64,000 bases of DNA from Pelobacter sp. (GTDB lineage Bacteria; Desulfobacterota; Desulfuromonadia; Geobacterales; Pseudopelobacteraceae), in the NCBI GenBank assembly GCA_030824515.1, contig JAVBXN010000024.1:1-64000 (forward strand), written 5' to 3'. This document shows positions 4,019 through 44,473 of the stretch, one piece after another (the stretch's first letter is position 1; the number at the start of each line of letters is the position of its first letter). The position numbers were made by a program, and so were the translations under genes. The notes below the pieces were generated by a model, which was not told the origin of the DNA, did not search any database, and was given only the letters and a program-made list of their open reading frames with translations.

Positions 4019-4034
4019 TGATGCTCCTTGTTTA

Positions 4035-27271: not shown

Positions 27272-28111
27272 TCAGCTCGGTTGTGACACCAACTCCAGCA
27301 CGGCGATTTCCGGGTAGCAGTTAAACCTGACCGGTAATATCGACCAGCCGATGCCTCGGGAAATAAACATCTGGCTACCCCGCGACGTGGTGACGACTCC
27401 ACTGATATAGTTCTTGTTGCGTACCGGCAGATAAGGCGGGCCATAAAAAGGAATTTGCACCTGCCCGCCGTGTGTATGCCCCGCCAGGATCAGGTCGATT
27501 CGTCGCGAGTAATCGCTGTCCGCTGTATCCGGGTTATGGGCCAGAACAATCCGGCAATCCCTGTCCGGTATCTTTGCAAGCACCAGGTCGAGATTACGAT
27601 GATCCTCCATTAAATCTCCCGCGCCGGCCAACCAGAGCGCCTGACCATTCCGCTCTATCCGCACAGCTTTGTGGCGCAGGTCCTGACCGTTCTTTTTAAG
27701 CCAGTATTCGGCCCGCGCAGTTTCGGACCAGTGGTCATGATTGCCGAGAACAGACCAGACACCATGGGGTGCAGATAGTCGTGAAAGAACCTGCCAGACT
27801 TCATCGATCTCATCAGAACTGCTTTTGCGATACACATAATCGCCGGTACTGGCAATAAGATCGGGTTTAAGAAGATTGGCGCGCTCCACTATGCCTTTGA
27901 TAAAGATCAAAGGAGTCAACCGACCATAGTGAAAATCGGAAAGGTGCACAATCCTGAAGCCGGAAAAGGCCTCCGGGAGGTTAGGAACTGCAATCCGATA
28001 CTCGTTCGTCAATACTGTCATCCGTTCGACAACTAACGGATAACTCGCAAGCAGACCAACTGAACCGAGACGACAGAATGATTTGAGAAATTGACGGCGA
28101 GAGATATTCAT
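27272..28111 (-). CDS. Tat-exported metallophosphoesterase (YkuE/LpxG-like)
   Basis: 279 residues. The twin-arginine signal is SRRQFLK (residues 4-10) before a hydrophobic stretch. Calcineurin-like motifs occur in order: HLSDFHYGR, ASTGDYVY, VLGNHDHW, VLAHNPD and LAGHTHGGQ, giving a complete binuclear metal site. Related enzymes cleave phospho-headgroups or the UDP-diacylglucosamine pyrophosphate bond. It overlaps the upstream tetraether-synthase-like radical SAM gene by 4 bases (ATGA), so it probably acts on the lipid or polyketide product of that cluster at the outer face of the membrane. Substrate is inference. Confidence 0.82.
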   Translation of the reverse strand: MNISRRQFLKSFCRLGSVGLLASYPLVVERMTVLTNEYRIAVPNLPEAFSGFRIVHLSDFHYGRLTPLIFIKGIVERANLLKPDLIASTGDYVYRKSSSDEIDEVWQVLSRLSAPHGVWSVLGNHDHWSETARAEYWLKKNGQDLRHKAVRIERNGQALWLAGAGDLMEDHRNLDLVLAKIPDRDCRIVLAHNPDTADSDYSRRIDLILAGHTHGGQVQIPFYGPPYLPVRNKNYISGVVTTSRGSQMFISRGIGWSILPVRFNCYPEIAVLELVSQPS

Positions 28112-29523
28112 TGCACATTCAACAATAAATTAGTCACAGATTTATTCCGCAATGCCGACAGGTTATTCTGCGCACAGATCGGCATCAGTTGTCCGTCTGC
28201 CTGAGGGTAGTGATTGCAACACTTCATCAACCTGCCCAGATCGAAGGTGTCACGGTCCATGAAATGATGAATGAATATTCCCTTCATGGAGGCACTCCCC
28301 AATTCAAAGGCCCGCTTGGGCGAAAAAGTTGTGGTGGAAAGCTCCCGAATAATGGACCGCATCCGTTGGAGGACACGTTCGTTGTCATTGCTGCTGTCAG
28401 CGGCTGACCAGAAATCGTAAATCCGCTCCTTGATCATGGCGTAGCCATCCTCCTCCAGACCCGGCAGAGTGCGGTTGGCAATCACCTCCAGATAATTATC
28501 CTTACCCAGAAATTCCTTGAGACTGAGAAACGCTCCCTCATCCAGCTTAAGATAGTAAGAGAGAGCAAAACAGGAATAATGGGAGCATGGCAGAGGATTG
28601 AAATCTCCCTGACGGACATATCGGCTCTGCTCAATCCTGCTAACGACATCCGGAATGGTCAGACGATCATCGGCAAAAATACCGGCGGCTGCGCCGGTGA
28701 ATGTAATCGGTTGGAACATGAGGCTCACTGCCGCTGAATTGAAGAAAAAGTCCGTGATCGGAGTTATCTCGTGGTCATTGACTCCTTTCATCACCGTGGC
28801 GGTCAGGGAATAGCGCACCCCTTCCCGTTCCAGCATGGATATCAGTTCAATCTTCATGTCAGAGAGATCCTGTCCCCGCAGGTTACGCCAGGTTCGGGGC
28901 TCAAAACCGTCGAACTGGAGAGCGGCGATAGTCTCGGTTTCGCGTAACAGGTCGCGCAACCGCCGATCCTCGAAGAGCCGCAGGCCGTTGGTAGAGACGG
29001 TCGTCTGCATGACCCCTTCTTCACTTGAGATGCGTACGATCGCCTCGAATTCAGGATGCATGGTCGGCTCACCGCCGCTCAAATTGAGCACAGGGATGCT
29101 CCCCTCGCATTTCCGGAGCCTCTTCAGCATAGCTCTGTAATCAGTAGCGTTCATCCCGAACGGCTGTCGCAGATCCTTGAGGCAGATTGGGCAGGCTAGA
29201 TTACAGGCGTTGGTGATCTCCACCACCGGCAGGCAGGTGTGCTGGCGATGTTCTGGACAGAGACCGCAGGAGTCGGGGCAACCGGAAAAACTCTTGTTAC
29301 TCAGATCGAGCGGAGCCTGTCCCGGTTTTATGTAGGAACGGCTCTCCCGGTACCAGAAAGGATCGGAGCAGATCAGGGCGGAGCTGATGCCATCCCTGGG
29401 GCAGAGTTTTTCCAGCAAAACCCTGTCGTCTCTTTCGATAATGCGTGCCGGAACCAGGGTGTCGCAGGCGGGACAGATGGCGGTGGTATGAGAATATATT
29501 CGAGAGGGCTGTATATTCGTCAT
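28108..29523 (-). CDS. tetraether-lipid-synthase-like radical SAM enzyme (1)
   Basis: 471 residues. The Cys layout is C17-x2-C20 and C41 (rubredoxin-like knuckle with CPRDG), then a first CX3CX2C at C82/C86/C89 (CPDSCGLC) plus C97, then the radical SAM CX3CX2C at C107/C111/C114 (NACNLACPIC). LNLSGGEPTMHP carries the GGE motif. This multi-cluster layout matches the Tes/MSS family, which joins lipid alkyl chains by C-C bond formation; whether this protein does so is inference. It is downstream of a six-TM gene and translationally coupled to the phosphoesterase. Confidence 0.75.
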   Translation of the reverse strand: MTNIQPSRIYSHTTAICPACDTLVPARIIERDDRVLLEKLCPRDGISSALICSDPFWYRESRSYIKPGQAPLDLSNKSFSGCPDSCGLCPEHRQHTCLPVVEITNACNLACPICLKDLRQPFGMNATDYRAMLKRLRKCEGSIPVLNLSGGEPTMHPEFEAIVRISSEEGVMQTTVSTNGLRLFEDRRLRDLLRETETIAALQFDGFEPRTWRNLRGQDLSDMKIELISMLEREGVRYSLTATVMKGVNDHEITPITDFFFNSAAVSLMFQPITFTGAAAGIFADDRLTIPDVVSRIEQSRYVRQGDFNPLPCSHYSCFALSYYLKLDEGAFLSLKEFLGKDNYLEVIANRTLPGLEEDGYAMIKERIYDFWSAADSSNDNERVLQRMRSIIRELSTTTFSPKRAFELGSASMKGIFIHHFMDRDTFDLGRLMKCCNHYPQADGQLMPICAQNNLSALRNKSVTNLLLNVQ

Positions 29524-30090
29524 TTATGGGGAAACCCTTGCCATGCTGAAGTAACGGTTATGAACATGGGTCAGTGAGATAAAGAATATTCCGAAGCCGA
29601 ATAGCATCGCCAGATAGAAGGTCGCATAATTTGGATAAACCTTTTCCCACCCCTGATAAATACGGAACGCGCTGTTGATATTCAGGGTCTCGTCGGTGAA
29701 GATGCGAGCCAGCAGCTGCAATGCAATTCCGAGTGACATGGCAAACAACCAGGTATGGCGCGGCAGGCGATAATTGCGAATAGCTGTCCCACCCACCAGC
29801 AGGCCGACGATGTGAAACATTGTGCAACTCGGCGTCCAGTCGTTATGCAAAATGGCATCGTAGAGCCAAAGCGGAAAGGCGATCAACAGCCAGCCGAACC
29901 CCACCCCCACCAGCAGTGCCGAGCGGCGGAAGATACCGATGCAAAGCAGCAGGTTTGCTGAGTAGCAGACAAAAAAAAGATACTGCGGATTCAGATTTAG
30001 CACGGTATCTGTGACGTGCCAGATCAGCATGAGCAGCAGCGGAATTCCCCAACTGGGATGTCTTCCGATTTTAAAAAGACCATCGAGCAT
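29524..30090 (-). CDS. multi-pass membrane protein between the two Tes-like enzymes
   Basis: 188 residues, about six hydrophobic helices (IPLLLMLIWHVTD, YLFFVCYSANLLLCIGIF, LLVGVGFGWLLIAFPLWL, FHIVGLLVGGTAI and others) with His and Trp near helix ends. No recognised family. It starts 15 bases after the DUF1571 gene and its stop directly abuts the next radical SAM gene, so it clearly belongs to the cluster; it may be a transporter or a membrane-embedded modifying enzyme. Confidence 0.6.
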   Translation of the reverse strand: MLDGLFKIGRHPSWGIPLLLMLIWHVTDTVLNLNPQYLFFVCYSANLLLCIGIFRRSALLVGVGFGWLLIAFPLWLYDAILHNDWTPSCTMFHIVGLLVGGTAIRNYRLPRHTWLFAMSLGIALQLLARIFTDETLNINSAFRIYQGWEKVYPNYATFYLAMLFGFGIFFISLTHVHNRYFSMARVSP

Positions 30091-30105
30091 GGTTTATGTC
30101 CCTGT

Positions 30106-30825
30106 TCAAAAGCAATATTCCGGGTTTTTGACATCGAAATCCATGTCGGTGAGGCCGACGTTCAGCCTGATAGCATCATACTGGTACTCTTCCAGAAACT
30201 CATTGTCCCAACCATGCACAGTGATCTTAACCGGCAGGGAGGTTTCCTGGTCAATGGAGACAAGCACTGTTTTGCCGTAATATCCGCTCCCCTTGGGAAA
30301 GATCGCCTTGACCAGCTGGGTCTTCCTACCGTTCAGCAGAGCTTCACCTTCGAGTGTTATGCGGCTCTCAGGGTCGTTTTTTGCCTGTTGGTAGTTTTTC
30401 TCCATCAAATAAAGGATCTGTCCGATTCCGGCGTCCATGATGGGGTGGCGGTTATTCTTCAGGGCCAGGGAACCGCGCGGATCAACGGCTATCCGGAAAA
30501 AGCCGAAAAAACCACCCAAATGGACTTCGAGTTTATTGTCGTATTTCCCCTTGGCATAGATCGCCTCCAGCCCGGCATCATCCCCAACGGTGTACTTCAG
30601 GTAAAAGCTGTCCGGTTTTCTGAACTTGAATTGAAGGTTGCGCACCTCCTTTATCTTTCCCCTGACCAATTCCTTTTTGTGAAAGGTGCAACGATAGTCA
30701 GTGACCCGGCTATAGGCAACAAGAGAACGCTGCAGCATTCCATCCAGATCAGCCTGCCCGGCAGATGCAGCGGTTGCCTGGACAAGCAAGAAAATCAAAC
30801 AGAATACTGTGAGCAGCTTATTCAT
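30106..30825 (-). CDS. DUF1571 / LolA-like periplasmic protein
   Basis: 239 residues with a signal peptide (FCLIFLLVQATAASA, cleavage near 22). The beta-rich mature part (RVTDYRCTFHKKELVRG, IKEVRNLQFKFRKPDSFYLK, VKITVHGWDNEFLEEYQYD) matches the DUF1571 family with the LolA-type half-barrel that carries acyl chains. LolA-like proteins are standard members of aryl-polyene-type clusters, so this may chaperone the lipid product across the periplasm. It is coupled to the upstream radical SAM gene by a 4-base overlap. Confidence 0.72.
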   Translation of the reverse strand: MNKLLTVFCLIFLLVQATAASAGQADLDGMLQRSLVAYSRVTDYRCTFHKKELVRGKIKEVRNLQFKFRKPDSFYLKYTVGDDAGLEAIYAKGKYDNKLEVHLGGFFGFFRIAVDPRGSLALKNNRHPIMDAGIGQILYLMEKNYQQAKNDPESRITLEGEALLNGRKTQLVKAIFPKGSGYYGKTVLVSIDQETSLPVKITVHGWDNEFLEEYQYDAIRLNVGLTDMDFDVKNPEYCF

Positions 30826-32231
30826 GCATTACTCTCCACCCAAAAACGGGGATCTTTTTGCCGATAGAGCAGGTTATAAGAACAGGCTGGAATCATGCGA
30901 CCTGATTCGTCAGGCACCAGGTCGCCACAGTGACTAACCCTGGCAACATCGAAATTATCCTCGTCCATATGGGGATGAATATAGACCATGCGGATCATGG
31001 ATTCGGCCCGCGCTTGCCGTTCTGCCGCGGTAAGATTTTTGCCCGGTGGATACATCTCTTTGATGAATCGACGCAGCATGGCAATTGTCTCTTCGCTTTC
31101 TCCCTCGGCCCAGAGACGGTCTATTCCTTCGCGTAGTGCCGCTGCCAACTCCTCGCCGCCATCAAGTACATATGAACCTGCTGTGGCAGTTGTCAGCAGC
31201 CTCCTCTCCACCAGTCGCGACAGGGGGAGCAACTGCTCGCCGTTCACCAGATAATAGGCAACGGAATAACAGAGCGGGTGATAGGAACCGAGCGGAAAGA
31301 AATCACCCTTGCCGAAACCGCCATGGGCAACCAGCAGATCCTCAACTTCGTCGATGGTGACATGTTCCCGTGGCTGAAATCGGCTACCGTTTTTGCCGGT
31401 AAAGGTCATGTTTTGGATCGTCACCCCGCGTACAAAAGACTTGGGCAGAAAACGCCGCACCAGTTGGGCTGTCTCCTCCTCGTTCACCCCTTTGATACAG
31501 ACGATCAGGATGGTTGCAGGTATGGCGAGTGTCTCAAGCCGCTCCAAGGCGGCCAGCTTTTCCCTGGTAATATCCCGGCCATGGATAATGACGCTTTTCT
31601 CCGGATCAGTGGTGTCCAGGGAGAGCACCACCTGGACACCGCTTTCCTTGAGACGCCTGGCAAAGTCCGGGTCGGAGGCTATGCGCAGACCGTTGGTGTT
31701 CATGGTAATTCGTCCGATAGGGCTATGGGTGCAGAGGTCAAGTAGATCGAAGATTTGTGGGTGGAGGGTCGGTTCCCCACCAGTGATGTTGATCAACTCC
31801 AGTTCGCCGCATCTGGCGGTCAAGTTCCGGATGATGGTGTTCATCTCGTCAAGGGATTTGCAGTAGGCCAGATCCGGGCGGTTATAGGTAAAGCAGATTG
31901 GGCAGTCCAGATTGCATAGATTGGTGATCGACACCACCGGAAGGTGAAGCCGGGCGGTGTGGCACTCGCAGGGGCCGCAGTCAAAGGGACATCCCCTGGT
32001 CAGCTTTCCGGCACTGGGCATACTCTCCATAGGTAGTGGCTCTGCGGTGCGTTCCAGGTACCAGTGATAATCCCTGGCGATACGAACACTCACCGTACCG
32101 TGCTGTGGACAAATTCGATCCAGAAAGACTCCGCCGGCGCGGGCTGTGATAAGGGCATGTTCCGTGACCCCGCAAGCCGGGCAAAAAGCGCGGGTGGAGT
32201 CGATGGTTATGCCTGGGGCATTGGAGTTCAA
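30822..32231 (-). CDS. tetraether-lipid-synthase-like radical SAM enzyme (2)
   Basis: 469 residues, paralogous to the enzyme at 28108. C17/C20 and C41 (CPQHG) form the rubredoxin-like site; C81/C85/C88 (CPFDCGPC) plus C90 form the extra cluster; C106/C110/C113 (NLCNLDCPIC) form the radical SAM cluster, with ELINITGGEPTLHP after it. Having two such enzymes in one cluster suggests sequential or heterodimeric chemistry on an acyl chain. It overlaps the SDR gene upstream by 4 bases. The family call is from cysteine spacing and motif order; the reaction is inferred. Confidence 0.75.
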   Translation of the reverse strand: MNSNAPGITIDSTRAFCPACGVTEHALITARAGGVFLDRICPQHGTVSVRIARDYHWYLERTAEPLPMESMPSAGKLTRGCPFDCGPCECHTARLHLPVVSITNLCNLDCPICFTYNRPDLAYCKSLDEMNTIIRNLTARCGELELINITGGEPTLHPQIFDLLDLCTHSPIGRITMNTNGLRIASDPDFARRLKESGVQVVLSLDTTDPEKSVIIHGRDITREKLAALERLETLAIPATILIVCIKGVNEEETAQLVRRFLPKSFVRGVTIQNMTFTGKNGSRFQPREHVTIDEVEDLLVAHGGFGKGDFFPLGSYHPLCYSVAYYLVNGEQLLPLSRLVERRLLTTATAGSYVLDGGEELAAALREGIDRLWAEGESEETIAMLRRFIKEMYPPGKNLTAAERQARAESMIRMVYIHPHMDEDNFDVARVSHCGDLVPDESGRMIPACSYNLLYRQKDPRFWVESNA

Positions 32232-32950
32232 ATCCCACCATCCACAAAGACGTTCTGACCATTCATGTAACTGCTCCGCTCAGAGGCCAGAAAGCATACG
32301 ATCTCCGCCACCTCGGCCGCCGTTCCTGATCGTCCGCTGGCACAGTGTTTGAGGTAATCCTGAACCAGCGCTTCAGGCACGCCCCGTGCTACGCCATCCT
32401 CCAGAAGGCCGGGAGAAACGGTATTGACCCGGATGTTATAACGCTTCAACTCATTCGCCAGGGCGGTGCTGAAACCAGCCACAGCCGCTTTGGAAAGTGC
32501 GTAATGCACCGGCACATCCAGCATGCGGTGACCAGCCAGCGAACCGATGTTGACCACTACGCCCTTCTTGCGCCGGATCATCGGTCTGACCACCGCCTTG
32601 GTAAGGAATAAGGTCCCTTTCACATTAACATCCAGCAAAAGGTCAAGATCTTCGTTCTCCAGCATCGAAAAGGGCATGATCTGACTTACCGCAGCGTTGT
32701 TAATCAGCACATCAAGGGACTCTATGTCATGGTGCAGAGCTGAAACAGTTTCGTTGACTTTTGCCTGATCGCGGATATCCAGCGAAATGGCCCGGCTGCC
32801 GGTGAGTTCCTTTTCAAGCTGTTCGGCCTTCTCCTGATTGGTGTGCCAGGTGAAGAACACCTGGGCGCCGTATCCGCTACAAGCCCGGCAGATGGCCTCT
32901 CCCAGATAGCCAGTGCCTCCGGACACCAACACCTTGACATTCTCAAGCAT
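32228..32950 (-). CDS. short-chain dehydrogenase/reductase, ketoreductase-like (1)
   Basis: 240 residues from the ATG at 32950, with GGGGAGGGG just upstream and an 8-base overlap with the ACP gene; the frame extends further but the extension lies inside the ACP gene. Rossmann motif SGGTGYLGEA (about 10-19), NNAAVSQ, and the catalytic Tyr/Lys in HYALSKAAV. It ends with SYMNGQNVFVDGGI as in FabG. It would reduce 3-ketoacyl groups on the neighbouring ACP. Second of two such reductases in the cluster. Confidence 0.85.
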   Translation of the reverse strand: MLENVKVLVSGGTGYLGEAICRACSGYGAQVFFTWHTNQEKAEQLEKELTGSRAISLDIRDQAKVNETVSALHHDIESLDVLINNAAVSQIMPFSMLENEDLDLLLDVNVKGTLFLTKAVVRPMIRRKKGVVVNIGSLAGHRMLDVPVHYALSKAAVAGFSTALANELKRYNIRVNTVSPGLLEDGVARGVPEALVQDYLKHCASGRSGTAAEVAEIVCFLASERSSYMNGQNVFVDGGI

Positions 32951-33329
32951 GTTCCCCTCCCCTGACCAGCTTTGCCTGGACAATGGCTGTCAGATCAGCG
33001 ACGGTCAACAACGAGAACATATCCACCTTGCTCATGCTCTCGCGGAACTGCTCCTGCTTTGCAGGGAAAATCCCTTTCAATTGAGCCTCGCCATCTCCGG
33101 TAAGGCGGCCATCAAGAAACAGCTCATCCATGGCAAGCCCGCTGCCGCCGAGCATGATCTCATCGGTCTTGATCACAACACCAAAGGTGCGCTCGATCAA
33201 GTGAATGATCTCCACAAAGTCCAGGCTGTCCGCCCCCAGATCGGCGATGAGGGAGTCGCTGTCGTTGATGGTGTCGGGTGACTCAAGGTTGAAGACGCGG
33301 GCAAGGATTTCTTTTAGTTGTTGGTTCAT
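32943..33329 (-). CDS. acyl carrier protein with extended C terminus
   Basis: 128 residues, well above the usual 75-85. The phosphopantetheine site is S35 in LGADSLDFVEI. An insert-like stretch (MLGGSGLAMDELFLDGRLTG, about residues 59-78) precedes the last helices (LLTVADLTAIVQAKL). Dedicated carriers of this kind occur in specialised type II fatty acid or polyene clusters. It overlaps both its neighbours (ATGA upstream, 8 bases downstream), so it is made in step with the SDR. Confidence 0.85.
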   Translation of the reverse strand: MNQQLKEILARVFNLESPDTINDSDSLIADLGADSLDFVEIIHLIERTFGVVIKTDEIMLGGSGLAMDELFLDGRLTGDGEAQLKGIFPAKQEQFRESMSKVDMFSLLTVADLTAIVQAKLVRGGEHA

Positions 33330-33727
33330 GGTTGCGGCCTTTCGTCAGTCGTCGCTACGTTCGCCTTTGGCCTAAGAAAATGCGTCGCATAGGCTCGTTC
33401 GATGTTGGGATCACCTGACTTGCTGAATCTCAAGGGAATCTTTTTCCCTTTTCCCCAGGAGAGGTAAGCGGCAATACTTGGCCGGAGGCCACCTTGCTTG
33501 CCATTGGCATGCAAAGCCCTGAGCAGTATGCTGATCTTGGACAGATTGATCGTGACGACCTTCTCCAGGTAGGGGATCTTGCGGAATCGCCAGGCTTCAT
33601 AATTCTCTTTTGTCAATTTTCCCATGCGGATCAACAGGTCAACAAAGCTGATGTATCCTTTCTCCCGAAGGAGTTCGGAAGAGACGGTGTTCATCTGGGT
33701 GATAAGGTCGTTACGGTTGGCGCTCAT
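33326..33727 (-). CDS. uncharacterised basic protein coupled to the ACP
   Basis: 133 residues, basic, no membrane segment (LLREKGYISFVDLLIRMGKL, TKENYEAWRFRKIPYLEKVV, GGLRPSIAAYLSWGKGKKIP). I recognise no named family. Its stop overlaps the ACP start (ATGA), so it is probably a partner of the carrier protein or of the condensing enzymes. It is the gene next to the point where the ATPase module is inserted. Confidence 0.55.
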   Translation of the reverse strand: MSANRNDLITQMNTVSSELLREKGYISFVDLLIRMGKLTKENYEAWRFRKIPYLEKVVTINLSKISILLRALHANGKQGGLRPSIAAYLSWGKGKKIPLRFSKSGDPNIERAYATHFLRPKANVATTDERPQP

Positions 33728-33773
33728 TCTTACATTCCTTCTGAATCTATTTAAACCTCGAAACGGCTTTACT

Positions 33774-33798
33774 CACGCAACGACGCAACGACGCGGCG
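33774..33798. repeat. 25-bp CACGCAACGACGCAACG-type repeat
   Basis: Begins CACGCAACGACGCAACG and continues ACGCGGCG. Same family as 12231-12255 (inverse orientation) and 39486-39568. It lies at the junction of the lipid cluster and the ATPase module. Confidence 0.7.
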
Positions 33799-33950
33799 GA
33801 ATTCATTTACCCTTCTTTGGATGTATAAGTTTAACAATCTCTCTGAATATCTGATCGAAACGCTTGCTGGAAAGCGACTTTTCGCTGTATTTCAGATCCG
33901 GTTCCGATATGTTTTTCCTGCCGTTATACAGTGCTTCACTTTTGTTGATT

Positions 33951-36851: not shown

Positions 36852-36862
36852 AGTTCCTCCCT

Positions 36863-38008
36863 TTAAACCGTACCGACTACATAGCGTAGCCACCAGAGCC
36901 GCAACAGGTTCATCATGAACTGGAAACGACCGGGATCGTCTTCGCAGGAAATCAGATATCCATCCATAACAAGAGTATCAAGGAGCGTAGAAAGTTGTTG
37001 TCCGCTTACCTGTTCCCCACCCCTGTTAAGAGCCATCAGAATGGTGTCACGCCGGGCTCCTGCCGGATCAGCGGCAATTACGGATAGTATTAGGAATAAA
37101 TAGGTTCGCTCCGGATCAAGAAAATTCTTGGTTAAATGTTCTCGCCAAGTTGCCCAATAAACCCTTTTTTCAAGCGAGAGCATGGCGTCTAGCGCATCCT
37201 GCGCAGCTTTGGCTGACACCTCACCTGTTAAGCTCTTTCTTACACATGCGTCATTCACAATCTTTTCCAGATAGTAGGGTGAAAGCCAGCCTAAACCATC
37301 TATAACAACCTGAAGCGCAGCGTCATCAATATGGCAATTATCTCTGCCGGACAGGGACTGAATATAATCCCTCGCCACTTGTGGAGAAAACGGTTTTAGA
37401 GGGTAGACTTCCATATCGATCAACGCGCCTTCCATCTCCTCGCGTCGGGATACCGCATCCAGACCGACTGAGCCGGTATAAAGCCAGCGAACCATGGGAT
37501 AACGCTGCCGCATGTTACGAAGCCAGTACATAAATGAGGAGGCTCGTCCTCTGTCACCGCCCTTAAGTAAAGTGAGAATGAATATCGGCAATTCGTCTAC
37601 CATAATGAGCAACGGCTTTTCATCACCAGGTTTATTCAGAGTTTCCAGAAGAGTCTCGGCAAACTGCCTCCAGTCAGTATGTAAAAGCAGTTGACGCCAA
37701 TCTTTGAGATTTTCATCCCCATTGATGACCTGCCTCAGTCGCCGTGTAAATGCAGCCATTAGTGTCTGGCCTGTGCCGATCTCTTCCTGGATCGAGCTGC
37801 ATAGCTGCTGGAAAAAATCCTTTTCTTCTCCATACCCCTGAACATCAACTACTACTGCCCGGAAACCACTTTCATCTGCCTGACTACAGAGCTTATGCAG
37901 CAACATTGTCTTACCGACTCTTCTCGGTGCCAACATCAGCACATTTTTGTCCGCCTTGAACCACTTCCACAAGGTTATACAATCCTGTTCCCGATCAAAG
38001 AATTCCAT
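36863..38008 (-). CDS. AAA/archaeal-type P-loop ATPase with C-terminal winged helix
   Basis: 381 residues. Walker A LAPRRVGKTMLL (26-37) and Walker B PLLIMVDELPIF (132-143) are typical of the AAA_14/archaeal ATPase-like group. GLDAVSRREEMEGALI (about 205) fits the sensor region. A C-terminal helix-turn-helix-like region (about 320-381) ends LLRLWWLRYVVGTV. The ATG at 38008 has GGAGG 5 bases upstream. It forms an operon with the larger TPR ATPase. Such ATPase pairs are typical of defence or conflict loci; no nuclease or other effector is seen here. Confidence 0.75.
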   Translation of the reverse strand: MEFFDREQDCITLWKWFKADKNVLMLAPRRVGKTMLLHKLCSQADESGFRAVVVDVQGYGEEKDFFQQLCSSIQEEIGTGQTLMAAFTRRLRQVINGDENLKDWRQLLLHTDWRQFAETLLETLNKPGDEKPLLIMVDELPIFILTLLKGGDRGRASSFMYWLRNMRQRYPMVRWLYTGSVGLDAVSRREEMEGALIDMEVYPLKPFSPQVARDYIQSLSGRDNCHIDDAALQVVIDGLGWLSPYYLEKIVNDACVRKSLTGEVSAKAAQDALDAMLSLEKRVYWATWREHLTKNFLDPERTYLFLILSVIAADPAGARRDTILMALNRGGEQVSGQQLSTLLDTLVMDGYLISCEDDPGRFQFMMNLLRLWWLRYVVGTV

Positions 38009-38057
38009 GGTTTCCTCCGAGTATTCAAATCAATCCTAGAGTCAATAATAGCCGTCG

Positions 38058-38107
38058 ATATACAAATGTCAATAAATTTGATTTTGTATTTATACATTTT
38101 TGTATAT
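38058..38107. promoter_or_regulatory. operator-like inverted repeat upstream of the ATPase pair
   Basis: ATATACAAA (38058-38066) and TTTGTATAT (38099-38107) are inverse copies flanking an AT-rich core with a further GTAT-TT-ATAC element (38086-38095). They lie 50-99 bases upstream of the ATPase start, so a dedicated repressor is likely, for instance the neighbouring HTH protein. Confidence 0.45.
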
Positions 38108-38135
38108 TAACGCTACGTGACAAAAAAGACGGCTC

Positions 38136-38483
38136 TTATGGGGTATTTTCATTATACTCCGACTCACCTTCCGCAACCCGCAACACCGCTGTACCCTCCT
38201 CCGGCTCGAACACTACGCGCACCCGCGCATGAAGCACATGAGCAACCCGCCGAAGCATGCTCAGAGAATGCCCTTCATAACCCGATGACTCCAGACGGCT
38301 GATCTGTTGTTGGGAGGTATGGAGAAGCTTTGCCAATTCTTTTTGGGAAAGCCCGGATTTGCGTCGCAGGTCTGCTATCTGTAATGCCACGTCCCATGCG
38401 TCGCCGGCCGCTGAAAAGCGAGCGGCAAATTCCGGATCTTTCAGCTGTTGGTTAAGATAGTCGTCAAAATTTGTCTTTTTCAT
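38136..38483 (-). CDS. HigA-like XRE-family antitoxin
   Basis: 115 residues. The HTH motif LRRKSGLSQKELAKLLHTSQQQISRLESSGY (residues 39-69, quoted in parts: GLSQKELAKLL and QQISRLES) is of the Cro/C1 type. The N-terminal YLNQQLKDPEFAARF is typical of HigA-type antitoxins. It overlaps the toxin gene by 4 bases (ATGA), toxin first, as in higBA. It should repress its own promoter at the palindrome at 38843. Confidence 0.8.
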   Translation of the reverse strand: MKKTNFDDYLNQQLKDPEFAARFSAAGDAWDVALQIADLRRKSGLSQKELAKLLHTSQQQISRLESSGYEGHSLSMLRRVAHVLHARVRVVFEPEEGTAVLRVAEGESEYNENTP

Positions 38484-38833
38484 GGTTTATTCCTTTGCAA
38501 CCAATTGTTCATTCTTTCCGCCGCCGTAGCAAGATCCTGACGTTGAATAGCCTGCCCTTTATTACGAATTCCATGTACTGCGATAATTCTTTGTCCTTTT
38601 TCGAAAAACCATAACACCCGCGTGTTCAGTTTGCCGACATGACGCAACTCAAACAAGCCATCACCAAGCGCTTTGGATAGTGGTTCGCGATGATACTGTC
38701 GTATGCGCAGCTTTGCCAATCCGGCAAGTACCGCAGCAAAATCGTCCGGATCACTAACTTTCAGCTTATCCAGAAAATCACGCACCGGACAATTTCCGCT
38801 TTCTGTTTCATAAAACTCTACTATAAAGTCCAT
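38480..38833 (-). CDS. HigB/RelE-like (Gp49-type) toxin
   Basis: 117 residues. The motifs NCPVRDFLDKL, LRIRQYHREPLSKALGDGLF, ELRHVGKLNTRVLWFF and IIAVHGIRNKGQAI are those of the phage-derived Gp49-like HigB toxins, which are mRNA interferases of the RelE fold. It is the first gene of the pair and lies 31 bases from the nitroreductase stop, so it forms the upstream edge of the inserted module. Confidence 0.82.
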   Translation of the reverse strand: MDFIVEFYETESGNCPVRDFLDKLKVSDPDDFAAVLAGLAKLRIRQYHREPLSKALGDGLFELRHVGKLNTRVLWFFEKGQRIIAVHGIRNKGQAIQRQDLATAAERMNNWLQRNKP

Positions 38834-38842
38834 AACACCTCA

Positions 38843-38858
38843 ACATCAAATTTGATGT
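38843..38858. promoter_or_regulatory. perfect 16-bp palindrome at the higBA promoter
   Basis: ACATCAAATTTGATGT, centred about 18 bases upstream of the toxin ATG and touching its ribosome-binding region. A perfect palindrome in this position is typical of antitoxin autoregulation. Confidence 0.6.
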
Positions 38859-38864
38859 ACAAGT

Positions 38865-39443
38865 CTATTCCCTGTATCCTACCGGAATAACCGCTCCGAT
38901 CTCAAAGCCCCGCTTCACCCCGATCCGCAAGGCAATTTCCTCTTCCGCCAACAAAGGACCGGTCATGCAGCAGGAGCCAAGCTCCAGACTTGCTGCGGCT
39001 AGCTGCACCAGCATGGTCACTCCGGAGATTGATTTTACATAGTTGTCCCGTTCCCAACGGCCAACCCCATCGTCAGTCCCTTCCAGCATCAGCGACAGGG
39101 AGGGTTGCACCTTGAAAACGGGGATAAACAGGGCCGGGGCCGACTTGAATGCAGCAAAATGCGTTGAATATTCCAGGAACATGTCGCGAAAATCGCTTCG
39201 CACCTGCTCACCCAACTCCCGGCTGCGGTTCCTGACAATCCCGGCAAGATCACGTATAATAACCTGGTCGGTCACTACCAGCAGCTCCCAGTTTTTTTTG
39301 CCCGAGGCATATGGAGCGGTTTGAGTAATCTCGCGGATGGCCGTAATCTGGTCATCAGTGAGCAGCTGGTTACTGAAGCAGCGGATACTTTTGCGGTTTT
39401 GGCAGATGGATTTCAGAGAGTTGTATTCTGAGGTTGTGTTCAT
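38865..39443 (-). CDS. nitroreductase-family flavoprotein
   Basis: 192 residues from the ATG at 39443 (GGAG 5 bases upstream); the longer frame to 39500 runs into the repeat. NRKSIRCFSNQLLTDDQI and TAPYASGKKNWELLVV are the FMN-binding N-terminal signature, followed by LQLAAASLELGSCCMTGPL. These enzymes reduce nitro groups, quinones or double bonds with NAD(P)H. In this cluster it may act as an enoyl-type or desaturating redox enzyme on the growing chain; that is inference. It lies between the FabG-like gene and the inserted toxin-antitoxin pair. Confidence 0.78.
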   Translation of the reverse strand: MNTTSEYNSLKSICQNRKSIRCFSNQLLTDDQITAIREITQTAPYASGKKNWELLVVTDQVIIRDLAGIVRNRSRELGEQVRSDFRDMFLEYSTHFAAFKSAPALFIPVFKVQPSLSLMLEGTDDGVGRWERDNYVKSISGVTMLVQLAAASLELGSCCMTGPLLAEEEIALRIGVKRGFEIGAVIPVGYRE

Positions 39444-39485
39444 ATGTTCTCCGGAAACAGACAAGTTGGGACCACAGTCTTGTTT

Positions 39486-39568
39486 CACGCGACGACGCAA
39501 CGACGCGACGAAAAACTTTTACAAATCATTTTTTGGTTCTAAACGTTGCGTCGTCGCGTCGTTGCGTG
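39486..39568. repeat. inverted pair of 25-bp repeats, long hairpin
   Basis: Left arm 39486-39510 starts CACGCGACGACGCAACG; right arm 39544-39568 is its inverse with three A/G differences (some G-U compatible), loop 33 bases. It fills most of the gap between the nitroreductase and FabG-like genes. Confidence 0.75.
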
Positions 39569-39658
39569 AGTTATGTCTTTTCATGGATGTCATGCGAATA
39601 TTCATCATATTTTCGTGCTTTCCCTGTATTTCGTGGACCGAATGTATTTCTGCTATTG

Positions 39659-40378
39659 CTACACTCCCCGGCTGAAGCCGCCATCCACGGCAATTGTCCG
39701 GCCGGAGATAAACCCGGCTTCGTCACTGCATAGGAACGCAACAGCGGCAGCCACATCATCCGCACTCCCGAGCCGCCGCAGTGCGCTGTTCTGCCGGACT
39801 TCATCCGGGGCAAGCGCCAGCAGCTCCTTGAGGCTGCCGGCCTCAATCGCGCCCGGCGCCACGCAGTTGGCCCGGACTCCCTTGGGACCGTACTCCGCTG
39901 CCAGTGACCGGGTGAATGCCTCCATGAAGCCCTTGGTTCCGGCATAGACCGCCTGCCCGGGATTCCCCCTGGTGGCAGCCACGGATGAGATATTGATGAT
40001 GCACCCTTTTCTTTTCAGAAGCATTCCCGGTACTACTGCTCGGCAGAGTTTCACCAGGGCTGTTATGTTGGCGTCCAGCATGGAGAGGAGATCATGGTCC
40101 GGCATCTGGACCAGGAGCCCAGTTTTTGTGATGGCTGCACAGTTAATCAAAATGTCGCAGTCGTTGGCCGCCCGGCACAACCGGTCCAACGCTGAAGGCT
40201 CGGCATAGTCGGCTGGAATTATGGTGCAGTCAGCACCCAGTTCTTCCGCCAGTTGACGGCAGGAGGCGTCATTGCGAAAACAATGCAGTAGTGCCGTATC
40301 TCCGGGGCGGACGATCTTTCTGCAGATGGCCGCGCCGATGGCGGACGAGGCGCCGGTTATCACAATGTTACGGTTCAT
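39659..40378 (-). CDS. FabG-like 3-oxoacyl-ACP reductase (2)
   Basis: 239 residues. Rossmann motif VITGASSAIGAAI (6-18), INCAAITK, catalytic Ser in IINISSVAATRG, and Tyr/Lys in AVYAGTKGFMEAF. The C-terminal DDVAAAVAFLCSDEAGFISG and VDGGFSRGV match FabG. It would reduce the beta-keto group on the ACP after condensation. It overlaps the ketosynthase gene by 11 bases, so the two are coupled. The other SDR in this cluster (32228) may work on a different cycle or intermediate. Confidence 0.87.
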   Translation of the reverse strand: MNRNIVITGASSAIGAAICRKIVRPGDTALLHCFRNDASCRQLAEELGADCTIIPADYAEPSALDRLCRAANDCDILINCAAITKTGLLVQMPDHDLLSMLDANITALVKLCRAVVPGMLLKRKGCIINISSVAATRGNPGQAVYAGTKGFMEAFTRSLAAEYGPKGVRANCVAPGAIEAGSLKELLALAPDEVRQNSALRRLGSADDVAAAVAFLCSDEAGFISGRTIAVDGGFSRGV

Positions 40379-41561
40379 ATCGTTTCACCACCAGTGCTGT
40401 ATTCTGGCCGCCAAAAGCGGCATTGAGTTTGAGGACATTGCGGATCTCCATTTTAAGCGGCTCGCCAGTAATCACCCGCAAAGGTACATCCGGGTCCGGT
40501 TCGCGAAAATTGACCGTGGAAGGCACTGACTGGGTTTGCAGCGAGTAGATCACCCCCGCCATCTCCATGGCGCCGCAACCGGCAATGAGATGTCCCACCT
40601 GCCCCTTCATGGAAAAGACCGGTATTTCGCGGAAGCGTTTGGGAAAGACCAGCCTCATGGCCGCTGCCTCGGCCAGTTCGTTTTTGAGAGTACCGGTGCC
40701 ATGCAGGTGAACACAATCGATATCGTCAGGGCAGATACCGGCATCTGTCAAAGCATTCATGGCGGCTCTGGCCAGGGCTGAACCGTTCGGGTCAGGGTCG
40801 GTCACCATGTAGGCATCCATGGTAGAGGCGTATCCGGCTATTTCGGCCAGAATGCTCTCAGGGTATGCGGCCGCTTCATGCTGGAGTGTGAACAATGCCG
40901 CGCCCTCGCCTAGTACCAGTCCCCGTCTGTTTTTATCAAAAGGGCGACAAGCCTGTGCCGGGTCACCGTTCCAGTCAGAGAGCGCCCCCAGCTTGTGAAA
41001 ACCCATGTAGTGAAGCGGATTGATCATGGAATCCACTCCGCCGCAGATGGCCAGCGCCCCCGGCTTCATCTGACGTAATCTGCGAAATGAGAGCCCCATT
41101 GCCTGACTGGAAGCTACGCAGGCAGTTACATTCACCGTCACCTCGCCGTCAATGCCGAAACAGCGGGCCAGTTCACGGGCCATGGTCAGGGTGTTGCGGG
41201 AATAAGACTGCCAAGCCCCGCCCCCATCCACATAACCTGGAAGATTGAAGTAATCGATCCCCGCTCCCAGATGTAAAAGTCTGTCTGCAGGTTTCGCGGA
41301 TTGAAACGAAATACCGGTGCAGATTTGTTCCATGACCCTGTTCAGGAAGATCTCTTTTCTATCTACATTCGAAGAAAACACAGGAACTTTACCGTTTTCC
41401 TTCACCTCCGCACCGAGTCGTGAGGGATAGGCATCCACGTCGAAGTTTCGGATATTTCCGCTGCCGGTGGCGCCATTTTCAAGTGCCGCAAAAACATCGC
41501 CGAGACTGCATCCCACCGGTGATACCACTCCAGCACCAGTTATTACGACTCTCCCGCTCAT
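40368..41561 (-). CDS. beta-ketoacyl-ACP synthase (FabF/KAS-II-like)
   Basis: 397 residues. Catalytic triad: C148 in NVTACVASSQA, H287 in HLHGTGT, H324 in QVGHLIAGCGAME; the C-terminal loop LNAAFGGQNTAL is the gatekeeper-type GFGG-like element. It condenses malonyl-ACP with an acyl-ACP. It overlaps the next upstream gene, an active-site-less partner, by 4 bases, the usual KS-alpha/KS-beta arrangement of type II polyketide and aryl-polyene systems. Membership in a specialised cluster rather than house-keeping FAS is supported by the neighbours. Confidence 0.88.
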   Translation of the reverse strand: MSGRVVITGAGVVSPVGCSLGDVFAALENGATGSGNIRNFDVDAYPSRLGAEVKENGKVPVFSSNVDRKEIFLNRVMEQICTGISFQSAKPADRLLHLGAGIDYFNLPGYVDGGGAWQSYSRNTLTMARELARCFGIDGEVTVNVTACVASSQAMGLSFRRLRQMKPGALAICGGVDSMINPLHYMGFHKLGALSDWNGDPAQACRPFDKNRRGLVLGEGAALFTLQHEAAAYPESILAEIAGYASTMDAYMVTDPDPNGSALARAAMNALTDAGICPDDIDCVHLHGTGTLKNELAEAAAMRLVFPKRFREIPVFSMKGQVGHLIAGCGAMEMAGVIYSLQTQSVPSTVNFREPDPDVPLRVITGEPLKMEIRNVLKLNAAFGGQNTALVVKRYEP

Positions 41562-42148
41562 GGCTCAAGCCCTCTTGCCCACTGACGAAACATCTCCACC
41601 GCTTCGTCGCCTGAATCCAGCCAAGGCGATCCCGCCAACTCCTTTCGTTCCACCTGCGCAAAGCCGCATGCCACGCTGCTGTCCCGATACGCCTTCCCAG
41701 CGCCGATCAAGACCGGGCCATCACCAGGTGCACACAGGGCTTGGAGCAACAAGGAACCGGCGGATGAATACAACACCGCATTGTCACCGGTCAGACCGAA
41801 ATTGATTGAAGCAAAACTGAGCGGCATGTTCTGCAGCACCTTGAATTGATTGAGGGGAGAGACCGCCGCAATCCCTTTATCGATAAAGAGCCGGGGGGAA
41901 AAATGCCCGTCTGCATCGCGACTGGCAGCCATGATGTCATCCAGTCCATAGTCCTCATACTCCAGCATGCCGGTGGCGTAGTAACAAGGAATATCCGTAT
42001 CGATTGCCGTAATTTCGTGCAGCTTACCCAATGCCACTATGGCTGCCATGGACTCGCGGTTCAGGTATTTCATCATCTTTCGGTTTATTAGATAGCCCAG
42101 AACCGGGATATCCTCTCCATTACCATAGGTATCGAATACAATCTTCAT
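41558..42148 (-). CDS. truncated ketosynthase-like protein, chain-length-factor type
   Basis: 196 residues, about half a ketosynthase (matching the N-terminal thiolase half; Ketoacyl-synt_2-like). LQNMPLSFASINFGLTGDNA and VLYSSAGSLLLQAL mirror the KS core, but the catalytic Cys is replaced (SSAGS). Such proteins pair with the true KS as chain-length factors in aryl-polyene-type clusters. Coupled by ATGA overlaps on both sides. The exact job is inferred from this pattern. Confidence 0.75.
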   Translation of the reverse strand: MKIVFDTYGNGEDIPVLGYLINRKMMKYLNRESMAAIVALGKLHEITAIDTDIPCYYATGMLEYEDYGLDDIMAASRDADGHFSPRLFIDKGIAAVSPLNQFKVLQNMPLSFASINFGLTGDNAVLYSSAGSLLLQALCAPGDGPVLIGAGKAYRDSSVACGFAQVERKELAGSPWLDSGDEAVEMFRQWARGLEP

Positions 42149-42612
42149 GGCAGTTCACGGGTGTTCTTCATGCAGATCTTGTACAGTTCCAGTCGCGATC
42201 CATGCAGATTCTCATCCTGAATATCCATAAAGGTAAAGGTCAGTTCCCCTTCGGCGCAGACCTCGCCGTCTACTTCACTTTGCACCCGTACTACCCCGAA
42301 ATCGTCACGGAATGAGACCATGTCCGCCCGGAGCAGCATACGATCACCGGGAAAGACCGGTCTGCGAAACTTCATCCGATTGACAATGGAAAGGACACTG
42401 CGCAGAGCCGGTTTCCCCTCATGCTTCATGATCAGCTCAAAGAAGGATCCCCCCAACTGGGCAAGTCCCTCAATGATCAGAGAACCGGGATACACCGGAT
42501 GTCCGGGGAAATGCTCATCAAACACATCGTCTGAAAGTGAGACACACTTTACCGCTGTAATATGTTTGTTGTAGCAGATCTCCTCGATCCTATCGAGCAA
42601 ATGGAATCTCAT
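42145..42612 (-). CDS. FabZ-like 3-hydroxyacyl-ACP dehydratase
   Basis: 155 residues, hot-dog fold. The active-site motif HFPGHPVYPGSLIIEGLAQLG has the catalytic H34 and a Glu in EGLAQ. FRRPVFPGDRMLLRADMVSF is the second family signature. It would dehydrate the 3-hydroxyacyl-ACP left by the FabG-like enzymes, giving unsaturated intermediates. Overlaps with both neighbours are 4 bases. Confidence 0.87.
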   Translation of the reverse strand: MRFHLLDRIEEICYNKHITAVKCVSLSDDVFDEHFPGHPVYPGSLIIEGLAQLGGSFFELIMKHEGKPALRSVLSIVNRMKFRRPVFPGDRMLLRADMVSFRDDFGVVRVQSEVDGEVCAEGELTFTFMDIQDENLHGSRLELYKICMKNTRELP

Positions 42613-43577
42613 GTTTCCTCCGCCGGCATGGTATTTAATGGCATTTCTTCCTTCTGTTTACTCGACTGAGAACGCACCAGCAACGCGATTCGAAAGAGGA
42701 TTACGATGAAGAGAAATTCAGTTATCTCTTCCCAGACATCGGCCCAGAGGGGATGCTCGCCATATCCCCAGAAGCAGATAAAACGCATAAGACTGAAGAG
42801 AAGCGGGCCAAGCCCCAGAGCAACGAGAATTTTTGCACTTGCAAACCCTTTTTCCCGCAGGAAGAGAAGTGTTCCGAACGAAAGCAGTAAATAAAATGCC
42901 GCAACCGCGGGAATGAAACGCACCTCCACCATCTGGTTAAGCAGCGGATGTCCGAACATCACCTGCTGACCGAAGACCAATCCGGTGTAGAACCGGTTCC
43001 CAATTGGGGCGGCAAGAGGCATTGCTGCTACAACAAAGAGAGCCGGAATAATGTAGAGAAAGATAATCCGCATCGTGCAACTCATGTCTCGCTGCTTATA
43101 GCATGAGCCACATTGCGACAGGAGAGCACACTTCTTTCCTTCATCCGAGTAGTGCACTAAACGTTTATCAAACGCCTCTACAAAGGCATAAGCAAAAAAG
43201 GCAAAAGAACAGACCATACCGTAATTGTGCCAGTACTCCATCAGCAGGCTTCTATCGTGAAAGATGAGATAGTTCCCGGCGCAAGCCAGCTCACCGAGAA
43301 AAAAGAGGATCATCCCTCTGCTGATGGCATTAAGTTCCGTCTCAGTGCGCCGCCATAACATAAACGCTATGACAAGGGATATTGTCATGTAGAGCGGTTT
43401 GATGATAAAGGCAGCGGTGAAAAGTATCGCCTGCTCCCATAGTGGGATGATGAAAGGTGTCGCTGCTGTCGGCGTTGCTACAGAGGAGTTGAAATGAATA
43501 CCGAAGAACAGCGGAGGTAGTAACAACCCTGCTAAAAATAATATTAATAAAATCAAGGTAAGAGACTTGATTTTCAT
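42609..43577 (-). CDS. multi-pass membrane protein with a cysteine cluster
   Basis: 322 residues, about eight membrane helices. Between helices 4 and 5 a cytoplasmic or periplasmic loop carries C150, C156, C159 and C167 (C-x5-C-x2-C-x7-C), which could bind iron or zinc. No recognised family. Coupled by ATGA overlaps to the hydrolase and dehydratase genes, so it is an integral part of the cluster, perhaps a redox partner or transporter. Confidence 0.62.
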   Translation of the reverse strand: MKIKSLTLILLILFLAGLLLPPLFFGIHFNSSVATPTAATPFIIPLWEQAILFTAAFIIKPLYMTISLVIAFMLWRRTETELNAISRGMILFFLGELACAGNYLIFHDRSLLMEYWHNYGMVCSFAFFAYAFVEAFDKRLVHYSDEGKKCALLSQCGSCYKQRDMSCTMRIIFLYIIPALFVVAAMPLAAPIGNRFYTGLVFGQQVMFGHPLLNQMVEVRFIPAVAAFYLLLSFGTLLFLREKGFASAKILVALGLGPLLFSLMRFICFWGYGEHPLWADVWEEITEFLFIVILFRIALLVRSQSSKQKEEMPLNTMPAEET

Positions 43578-44473
43578 TTAGCATCACCCTCAACACCCTT
43601 CTTACCGGTCTTAACGTTCCCCGCCAGCGCCGCATCGAAAAACGCCACCAGCCTTGTGCAGTATTCGGACGTGGAATCAGCAAAGGCTTCGGTGTGGTCG
43701 GCCCCTTCGATGGTCCAGAACTGTTTCGGTTCGCGCGCCAGCTCGAAGAGGCGCTGGCCGTGCGAGTACGGCACCACCGAATCTTTGGTGCCGTGGATGA
43801 CCAGCAGCGGTGTCGGCGCAATTTTGGCAATGACCGCATCGGCGCTGTAATCGTCGCCGATCAGCAGGCGGGAAAGCGGACCTTTGAAGAATGACAAGAG
43901 CGGCATATCGGCGATCTTGTCGCGGACCATGCCACGGTACGATGCAAAGGCCGAGTCGATGGCAACAGCCCTGATTCCGCCGGGAGTATGAGCGGCCAGC
44001 GCCGCGATCGCATTGGCGCCTCCCAGGCTCTGCCCCAGCACAAGCAGCCGTTTTTGATCGATGTCCGGGCGTGAAGACACATATTCCAGTGCGGCCAGCG
44101 AATCCTGATAAACGCCGCGTCGTCCGGCCCTGCCGGCCGATTTGCCGTAACCCCGGTAATCGAAAACGAACAGGTTGAAACCCCGGGACGGCAGCCAGGA
44201 GACAAACCCGAAATGGGCGGTCATGTTCTGGGCATTGCCGTGGAAGTGGATCACGGTTCCTCTGGGCTTGCCGACGGCTGGAATGAACCAGCCGGACAGG
44301 CGAGTGCCGTCCCTGCTCAGGAAGGAAACCTCCTCGTACTTCAGACCATGGCGGTCCGGCGTGTCGTAGACTGTTCGATCGGGGTAGTAGAACATGCCAC
44401 CCACGCGCCAGCGGCAGAGAAGAACCAGCGCAAATACGATGAAAATCAGGGATGTAATTTTGACAGGGTTCAC
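43574..44473 (-). CDS. alpha/beta hydrolase, membrane-anchored
   Basis: 299 residues with an N-terminal TM anchor (residues 6-20). Oxyanion motif HFHGNAQN (77-84), nucleophile S149 in VLGQSLGGANA, acid in HGTKDSVVP and base in EGADHTEAF. The family includes BAAT-like and serine aminopeptidase-like esterases and thioesterases. In this setting it could release or hydrolyse the acyl product. It is the first gene of the visible biosynthetic run, 35 bases after the DUF3999 gene. Confidence 0.8.
   Translation of the reverse strand: MNPVKITSLIFIVFALVLLCRWRVGGMFYYPDRTVYDTPDRHGLKYEEVSFLSRDGTRLSGWFIPAVGKPRGTVIHFHGNAQNMTAHFGFVSWLPSRGFNLFVFDYRGYGKSAGRAGRRGVYQDSLAALEYVSSRPDIDQKRLLVLGQSLGGANAIAALAAHTPGGIRAVAIDSAFASYRGMVRDKIADMPLLSFFKGPLSRLLIGDDYSADAVIAKIAPTPLLVIHGTKDSVVPYSHGQRLFELAREPKQFWTIEGADHTEAFADSTSEYCTRLVAFFDAALAGNVKTGKKGVEGDAK

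Follow-up and report, generated by a model that had tools for sequence, protein, structure and literature searches.

The window examined here is a 64,000-nucleotide stretch of the Pelobacter sp. draft genome GCA_030824515.1 (62 contigs), covering positions 1 to 64,000 of contig JAVBXN010000024.1. The system in question is a gene cluster on its minus strand (27272-44473; Table 1). It encodes a ketosynthase (KS) with a half-size partner (KSp) resembling a chain-length factor (CLF), a dehydratase, two ketoreductases, an acyl carrier protein (ACP) and two radical S-adenosylmethionine (SAM) proteins, rSAM1 and rSAM2, which are related to the tetraether synthase Tes. A first-pass annotation of the window had described a type II chain-building set together with two radical SAM proteins. 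All of the genes it listed were recovered on the minus strand at or very near the positions assigned then, with identities given by Pfam and NCBIfam. Open reading frame coordinates placed 4-bp overlaps at 8 of the 13 gene junctions within the set, and the active-site residues of the chain-building enzymes were in place. The chain-building set and the two Tes-related proteins recurred as a unit in unrelated genomes, in keeping with the dedicated pathway suggested earlier; the first-pass annotation had picked out a genuine system, and its guess at the direction was a good one. The gene combination was described in no paper found by our literature search, outside which lay preprints and most subscription papers.

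Table 1. Features of the gene cluster in the window, listed in the direction of transcription
Feature	Position	Strand	Remarks
Alpha/beta hydrolase, possible thioesterase or lipase	43574-44473	-	Pfam Hydrolase_4; first gene of the set
MP322, multi-helix membrane protein	42609-43577	-	Assigned to no family; four-Cys loop C150, C156, C159, C167
FabZ-like dehydratase	42145-42612	-	FabA/FabZ matches; HFPG..E catalytic motif present, with catalytic His and Glu
KSp, half-size Cys-less ketosynthase partner, chain-length-factor-like	41558-42148	-	By itself matches no family
KS	40368-41561	-	Cys-His-His triad intact (aligned check)
FabG2 ketoreductase	39659-40378	-	Ser-Tyr-Lys intact
Nitroreductase-family flavoprotein (NTR)	38865-39500	-	Closest PDB relative a BluB-like flavoprotein, 3e-9
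Two ATPases and a helix-turn-helix (HTH)/RelE-like pair, likely insertion	33951-38833	-	Lower GC
H133, small protein	33326-33727	-	Assigned to no family; 4-bp overlap with ACP
Long ACP, 128 aa	32943-33329	-	Phosphopantetheine site DSL; Ser present
FabG1 ketoreductase	32228-32983	-	Ser-Tyr-Lys intact
rSAM2, Tes-related radical SAM protein	30822-32231	-	Cys kept at each of the four Tes metal sites
DUF1571 protein	30106-30825	-	Weak MucB/RseB match
MP188, small membrane protein	29524-30090	-	Assigned to no family
rSAM1, Tes-related radical SAM protein	28108-29523	-	Tyr459 kept; Met439 to His; rubredoxin His to Asp
Metallophosphoesterase	27272-28111	-	N-terminal RR motif; YaeI-like, below that model's cut-off

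Named genomes were scanned with a six-row alignment (A1) and two peptide patterns, and the loci described here derive from the best 80 of 86 relatives, a design by which relatives without the patterns are missed. Loci bearing the core came from records titled Azoarcus, Desulfarculales, Riflebacteria, Thermoplasmatota, Elusimicrobia, Myxococcota, Aminicenantes and unplaced Deltaproteobacteria. Part of the core was present under further titles, among them Thiomargarita, Zoogloeaceae and Betaproteobacteria. All named carrier records are titled as metagenome-assembled genomes (MAGs), in which binning errors are possible. By protein comparison, the recurring core comprised FabZ, KSp, KS, FabG2, nitroreductase, ACP, FabG1, rSAM2 and rSAM1, with some loci incomplete. 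We counted the rSAM1 clade as 23 named loci plus L071, L097 and the window. Among the named loci of this clade, 14 span at least 11 kb, and KS accompanied rSAM1 in 12 of them (exceptions L061 and L072); it was also present in L066 (9.6 kb), L071, L097 and the window, giving 16 KS loci altogether; in L063 and L067 the KS lay several kb away on the opposite strand. None of the 37 outgroup Tes-relative loci of at least 11 kb, a set that excludes L071, L097 and the rSAM1-clade locus L072, contained a KS. The 16 cluster KSs formed a single group relative to seven other KSs (Shimodaira-Hasegawa-like approximate likelihood ratio test 94) in a quick tree with some long branches.

Conservation of the neighbourhood within the order Geobacterales, for which a check had been suggested at first pass, was not borne out. 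The 140 other genomes of the order (141 searched including the source genome, 103 of them at least 90 % complete) yielded no close relative of rSAM1, and the remaining matches showed 27-33 % identity. Across 297 genomes of the phylum, a KSp search returned the source genome, one genome carrying the cluster (G283), two with other KS genes (G407 and G377) and one weak match (G338), and an rSAM2 search at E <= 1e-70 returned the source genome and G283 and nothing else. In the class of G283, 6 of 63 genomes had an rSAM1 match at E <= 1e-55. The module is rare and patchily distributed, and it has probably spread horizontally.

Comparison with solved structures identified Tes as the nearest relative of rSAM1. 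The A1 profile matched Tes (7tol) at 2e-70, in two stretches covering most of its length, whilst the next structure scored 1e-10. However, neither window protein reached the 450-bit cut-off of the Tes/GDGT-MAS model NF045702 (rSAM1 245.9, rSAM2 195.5). Similarity to the TrsS radical SAM (seleno)protein family also extended over the whole length (NF045646; 244.5 and 208.2 bits), but its cut-off of 490 bits was likewise unreached. MoaA-like NCBIfam matches were read as superfamily background. In a quick tree containing a single Tes sequence, Tes grouped with TrsS-like sequences (support 99), outside both the rSAM1 clade, which joined 20 of 21 sequences at 99 with L072 apart, and the rSAM2 clade (support 100). 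TrsS-like is our own grouping of sequences that were not scanned against the TrsS model. The tree omits the duplicates L046, L047 and L049 (equivalent to L058, L059 and L061), L106, L129, the rSAM2 fragment L057, every second Chloroflexi-type and TrsS-like sequence, L064, the rSAM1 of L068, L071 and L097. Because the scores lie below the cut-off and the pair falls outside the clade of the Tes tested, we call rSAM1 and rSAM2 relatives of Tes only, a sequence-based assignment that does not imply identity as Tes. The earlier description of the pair as Tes-like does not stand in its original form: Tes is the nearest solved structure, but the scores are about half the Tes cut-off. The first-pass annotation had named two observations that would count against it, radical SAM proteins outside the Tes-like clade and KS sets without them. 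The pair did fall outside the Tes clade, whereas no cluster-type KS set lacking the pair was seen; the latter check is weak, since the named loci were found through rSAM1 and the sole KS-side search was that with KSp in 297 genomes of one phylum.

Both window proteins contain the radical SAM cluster motif CX3CX2C and keep the N-terminal [4Fe-4S] ligands C73, C77 and C80 together with a His, which the alignment suggests is His83, the ligand His of that cluster. The three Cys of the rubredoxin-type C-X2-C...C-X2-H site are also kept in both, with a variable His position (Cys in L072, varied among rSAM2 orthologues), as are the Cys aligned with Tes 338, 455 and 470, whose conservation suggests that they are the C-terminal cluster ligands. 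The labile Met439 of Tes was replaced by His in 25/25 rSAM1 and 20/20 full rSAM2 sequences. These counts exclude duplicates; counts of 24/24 and 22/22 obtained elsewhere in the analysis include three duplicate genomes. The TrsS-like outgroup, in contrast, kept Met439 in 25/25 sequences and lacked Tyr459. Tyr459, a strictly conserved residue of Tes, was kept in all 25 rSAM1 sequences (the cut rSAM1 of L119 being excluded from this scoring) and in no other non-Tes sequence among the 104 aligned; rSAM2 lacks both Tyr459 and the second Cys of the Cys-Cys pair. Compared with window rSAM1, the rSAM1 of a Thermoplasmatota MAG (L062:9959-11632) has an extra in-frame segment, very roughly 80-90 residues long.

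The two radical SAM genes were closely associated with one another. In 20 of 24 loci (18 named loci, L069 and the window), rSAM2 lay upstream of rSAM1 at a distance of no more than two genes; of the other four, L064 and L070 start at rSAM1, whilst L062 and L072 lack rSAM2. Pairwise distances of rSAM1 and rSAM2 correlated with a rho of 0.88 over 19 loci, and those of rSAM2 and KS with a rho of 0.40, in each case with 0/500 shuffles as high. The distance test excludes L069 for rSAM2, and L071 and L097 entirely, and the first FabG of L058 was assigned to FabG2 by position. Among the 24 loci compiled for this test, window included, 13 had the nitroreductase.

A reduced protein occupies the rSAM2 position in L071 and L097, two MAGs titled groundwater Deltaproteobacteria, where the gene between FabG1 and rSAM1 encodes 271 and 295 residues, respectively, from the chosen start. 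The product aligns at both ends with Tes-like proteins. It keeps the rubredoxin-type Cys and His, the Cys and His of the N-terminal cluster, whose second and third Cys are spaced one residue further apart, and the C-terminal Cys, with His at the Met439 position; an HMPTM zinc ribbon was detected by Pfam. The alignment revealed no recognisable radical SAM barrel and no CX3CX2C motif, and there was no match to PF04055. Position and motifs identify this coreless protein as the rSAM2 counterpart. The ratio of nonsynonymous to synonymous substitution rates between L071 and L097 was 0.22 for the coreless protein (0.13 for rSAM1, 0.08 for FabG1), indicating that it is under constraint; values for NTR and MP322, obtained from frames that were too long, were excluded. 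This arrangement suggests that rSAM1 may need only auxiliary clusters from its neighbour.

On the chain-building side, aligned KSp orthologues spanned 196-431 aa, and their profile matched KS structures over the N-terminal two thirds of the latter. The window KSp sequence by itself found no KS in the PDB with phmmer, and its top fold match, to a 198-residue chain of 7f28, was weak (TM score 0.39). This entry is an aryl-polyene KS-CLF structure in which the CLF is about half the size of the KS (PMC8358021), and the length of the matched chain points to the CLF. The half-size CLF of the ApeO-ApeC complex is described as lacking the second thiolase domain (PMC8358021). These matches suggest a chain builder of the highly reducing, polyene type.

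Possible sulfur partners were encoded in most loci. A cysteine desulfurase was present in 10 loci (L052, L053, L054, L055, L056, L058, L059, L061, L069 and L119), with a C-terminal rhodanese domain in seven (Pfam; two barely above the cut-off). The membrane protein MP322 was present in eight KS loci including the window, and was fused to an N-terminal rhodanese domain in L065, L066, L100, L071 and L097, though not in the window, L067 or L068. The 16 KS loci were thus divided into six with the desulfurase, eight with MP322, two with neither (L062 and L063) and none with both; as these loci are related to one another, we attach no probability to this exclusivity. A rhodanese-fused partner was found in 9 of the 14 KS loci carrying either one. 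Four loop cysteines were invariant over seven aligned MP322 proteins (alignment A2), one of which (L094) came from outside the cluster. An AlphaFold model of MP322 (predicted local distance difference test score 79, low in the Cys loop) had no PDB fold match at E 0.001.

These observations lead us to a reading that we consider about as likely to be right as wrong, in which the chains made by the builder pass to a Tes-like unit of two proteins that acts via cluster-bound sulfur. The KS and its half-size partner, the two ketoreductases, the dehydratase and the dedicated ACP would build a reduced or polyene acyl chain, with a flavin reductase probably taking part. rSAM1 would then remove a hydrogen from an unactivated carbon of the ACP-bound or freshly released chain, and the resulting carbon radical would be caught by sulfide of the rSAM1 C-terminal [4Fe-4S] cluster, as in Tes. 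rSAM2 would act as the partner of rSAM1, its auxiliary metal sites mattering more than its own SAM chemistry. Cluster sulfur would be replenished by the cysteine desulfurase-rhodanese or by the often rhodanese-linked MP322. The resulting lipid would bear either a newly formed C-S bond, which we slightly favour, or a newly formed C-C bond. The DUF1571 protein, which by family resemblance is probably lipid-binding and periplasmic and has an orthologue in L066, would carry the lipid across the periplasm in the window lineage.

Activation of C-H bonds via cluster-bound sulfur is favoured because the ACP and chain builder are tied in and a possible sulfur source is present in most loci. Tes itself is reported to trap the first substrate radical on the sulfide of its C-terminal cluster, giving a C-S bonded intermediate, and under limiting SAM to release lipid with one added sulfur (PMC9433317). 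The same account notes that several C-S forming enzymes use unusual cluster ligands, Arg or Ser (PMC9433317), a pattern that the conserved His at position 439 would fit by analogy. Cross-linking by radical chemistry, as put forward at first pass, is possible, as is sulfur insertion, which was not considered then; sulfur may matter as much as carbon coupling. A more specific and rather doubtful version of our proposal is that rSAM1 and rSAM2 together make up a Tes-like heteromer with its own sulfur relay, which installs sulfur in or cross-links ACP-bound chains and yields a new class of sulfur-bearing lipid. Such a heteromer might be likened to KS-CLF, one subunit firing the radical and the other lending auxiliary clusters, and in the coreless protein of L071 and L097 a radical SAM relative would then have been pared down to the auxiliary clusters.

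Several observations weigh against the reading of a sulfur-working pair fed by its own chain builder. No member of the group has an established product or activity. At the residue level, the rubredoxin-type His is replaced by Asp in window rSAM1, as it is in L063. His at 439 is a feature of the pair, yet it is shared with 12 of 29 Chloroflexi-type sequences (the four commonest residues being His 12, Arg 10, Gln 4 and Met 1). Moreover, Tes is reported to remain active as M439A and as Y459F or Y459L (PMC9433317), so neither position dictates the reaction. Sulfur supply is weakest precisely in the window, where MP322 has no rhodanese domain and the cluster has no desulfurase; the absence of both partners from L062 and L063 points the same way, and the desulfurase could merely repair Fe-S clusters. 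The 21.6-kb locus L062 has no rSAM2, which argues against an obligate pair. The coreless protein resembles rSAM1, rSAM2 and Tes only weakly in sequence (about 33-42 bits), and its two examples, from closely related MAGs, are one evolutionary event. Finally, the window clusters with L055 and L062 in the KS tree but lies next to the L053 group in the rSAM trees, and the chain-builder and rSAM halves may therefore have recombined and have different histories.

The limited co-variation of the two halves also bears on whether they belong together at all. Distances of rSAM1 correlated weakly with those of KS (rho 0.31; 7/500 shuffles as high) and not with those of ACP (rho 0.08; 117/500), and rSAM2 and ACP distances were likewise uncorrelated (rho 0.09). 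L072 carries rSAM1 without a KS across 21 kb, and in L061 no KS was seen in 11.6 kb. Such results would fit a reading in which the radical SAM pair modifies a protein or cofactor and an unrelated chain-building set adjoins it by chance or through shared regulation. We judge this unlikely, given that the same core is found under titles of several phyla, that it is missing from all 37 outgroup loci of at least 11 kb, and that KS distances do correlate with those of rSAM2.

Alternatively, the pair could perform Tes/Mss-type C-C joining of two chain ends, giving a membrane-spanning, macrocyclic or ring-bearing lipid with the sulfur partner only repairing clusters, a reading that we regard as possible though improbable on balance. 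It has in its favour that Tes (MJ0619, 7TOL/7TOM) is the nearest solved relative, that domain order and the cysteines of all four metal sites are shared, that rSAM1 retains Tyr459, and that C-C coupling by Tes is preceded by storage of one radical in a C-S bond (PMC9433317). The bacterial membrane-spanning lipid synthase Mss, which we compared by description only, shares the Tes catalytic architecture according to modelling (PMC13274423). Set against this are the placement of the pair in clades separate from the single Tes tested and below its cut-off, the replacement of Met439 by His in every member examined, and the presence of two tandem paralogues. In addition, the lipids bound by Tes are already complete (PMC9433317), and those on which Mss works are argued to have received their head group beforehand (PMC13274423), whereas ACP, KS and ketoreductase genes are tied in here.

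Rattray et al. (2009) described clusters of type II fatty acid synthesis (FASII) and radical SAM genes in Kuenenia, Desulfotalea, Geobacter and Pelobacter and linked them to ladderanes (PMC2649909), and these share with the window cluster the placement of chain-building genes beside radical SAM genes. Cyclisation or desaturation of a polyene chain by the radical SAM proteins, an activity proposed for anammox and related clusters, could also be reconciled with a KS that has a half-size CLF like that of the aryl-polyene KS-CLF (PMC8358021). We nevertheless consider this quite unlikely. The ladderane-type clusters were compared here through the published description and the B12-binding family that NCBI names rSAM_ladder_B12 (TIGR04072). 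Neither rSAM1 nor rSAM2 has a B12-binding domain, TIGR04072 was not among the best 25 NCBIfam matches of either, and a member of that family sits at C51 of the same genome (402 bits against a cut-off of 360). Ladderane membership of the window cluster, one of the options raised earlier, was rejected on these grounds. By Pfam, the window set also lacks a phytoene-desaturase-like gene, a second full KS and an ammonia lyase. Aryl polyene clusters contain aryl starter genes (ammonia lyase and ligase) and acyltransferases, and we know of none with a radical SAM gene. The half-size CLF, ketoreductase, dehydratase and ACP resemble the ApeO-ApeC type, albeit with a weak fold match, but the window set has no ammonia lyase, ligase, acyltransferase or MMPL exporter (Pfam).

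Some parts of the window cluster stand apart from the conserved core. The approximately 5-kb block between NTR and H133/ACP has a GC content of 0.45-0.49, against 0.53-0.54 for the cluster genes, and NTR adjoins ACP without such a block in L055, L059 and L062; it is therefore likely an insertion outside the pathway. A PADLOC scan of the ATPase block gave weak matches only. By eye, one of its ATPases has a repeat-like C-terminal part, and the block is probably a defence-like or mobile insertion. The hydrolase had a counterpart in 0/23 named rSAM1-clade loci and a 26 % match in L071. No counterpart of the metallophosphoesterase was found in the same 23 loci, and its membership of the cluster is doubtful.

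Other loci encountered in the analysis contained related genes in different settings. C51 (L137, L138) carries a second, different cluster with the TIGR04072 radical SAM gene, a KS and a CLF-like gene, to which inspection by eye added ACP, acyltransferase-like and LolA-like genes; this is presumably the Geobacter-type cluster meant by Rattray et al. Within the window, a second radical SAM operon (1588-10380) encodes a GH3-type ligase and four radical SAM proteins, two lacking a B12 domain and two of the B12-binding type that share 35-39 % identity with a pair from the C51 cluster. Elsewhere in the source genome (C13), L028:7367-8701 encodes a further Tes-like radical SAM protein (295 bits, below the Tes cut-off) beside an apparent molybdopterin oxidoreductase, and L031 of another genome appeared similar by eye. 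Tes-like radical SAM genes were followed by a SAM methyltransferase gene in a Dehalococcoidia MAG (L076:5507-7728; methyltransferase by Pfam) and a Thaumarchaeota MAG (L091:9980-12114; by eye), neither locus having KS genes. KS matches in frames of 2263 and 1517 aa at C57:135354-144204 of the source genome perhaps represent a polyunsaturated fatty acid-type synthase.

Few reactions known in lipid chemistry are as hard as the bond formation at unactivated carbon that Tes-like enzymes carry out, and the substrates of Tes are membrane lipids that are already complete. A cluster coupling Tes-like enzymes to their own chain builder, and often to a sulfur source, would offer a genetically tractable version of this chemistry, with a substrate that is possibly soluble and ACP-bound. 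Through the coreless partner, the role of the auxiliary clusters of radical SAM enzymes on their own could be addressed, and the cluster as a whole would be a candidate source of unknown lipid biomarkers.

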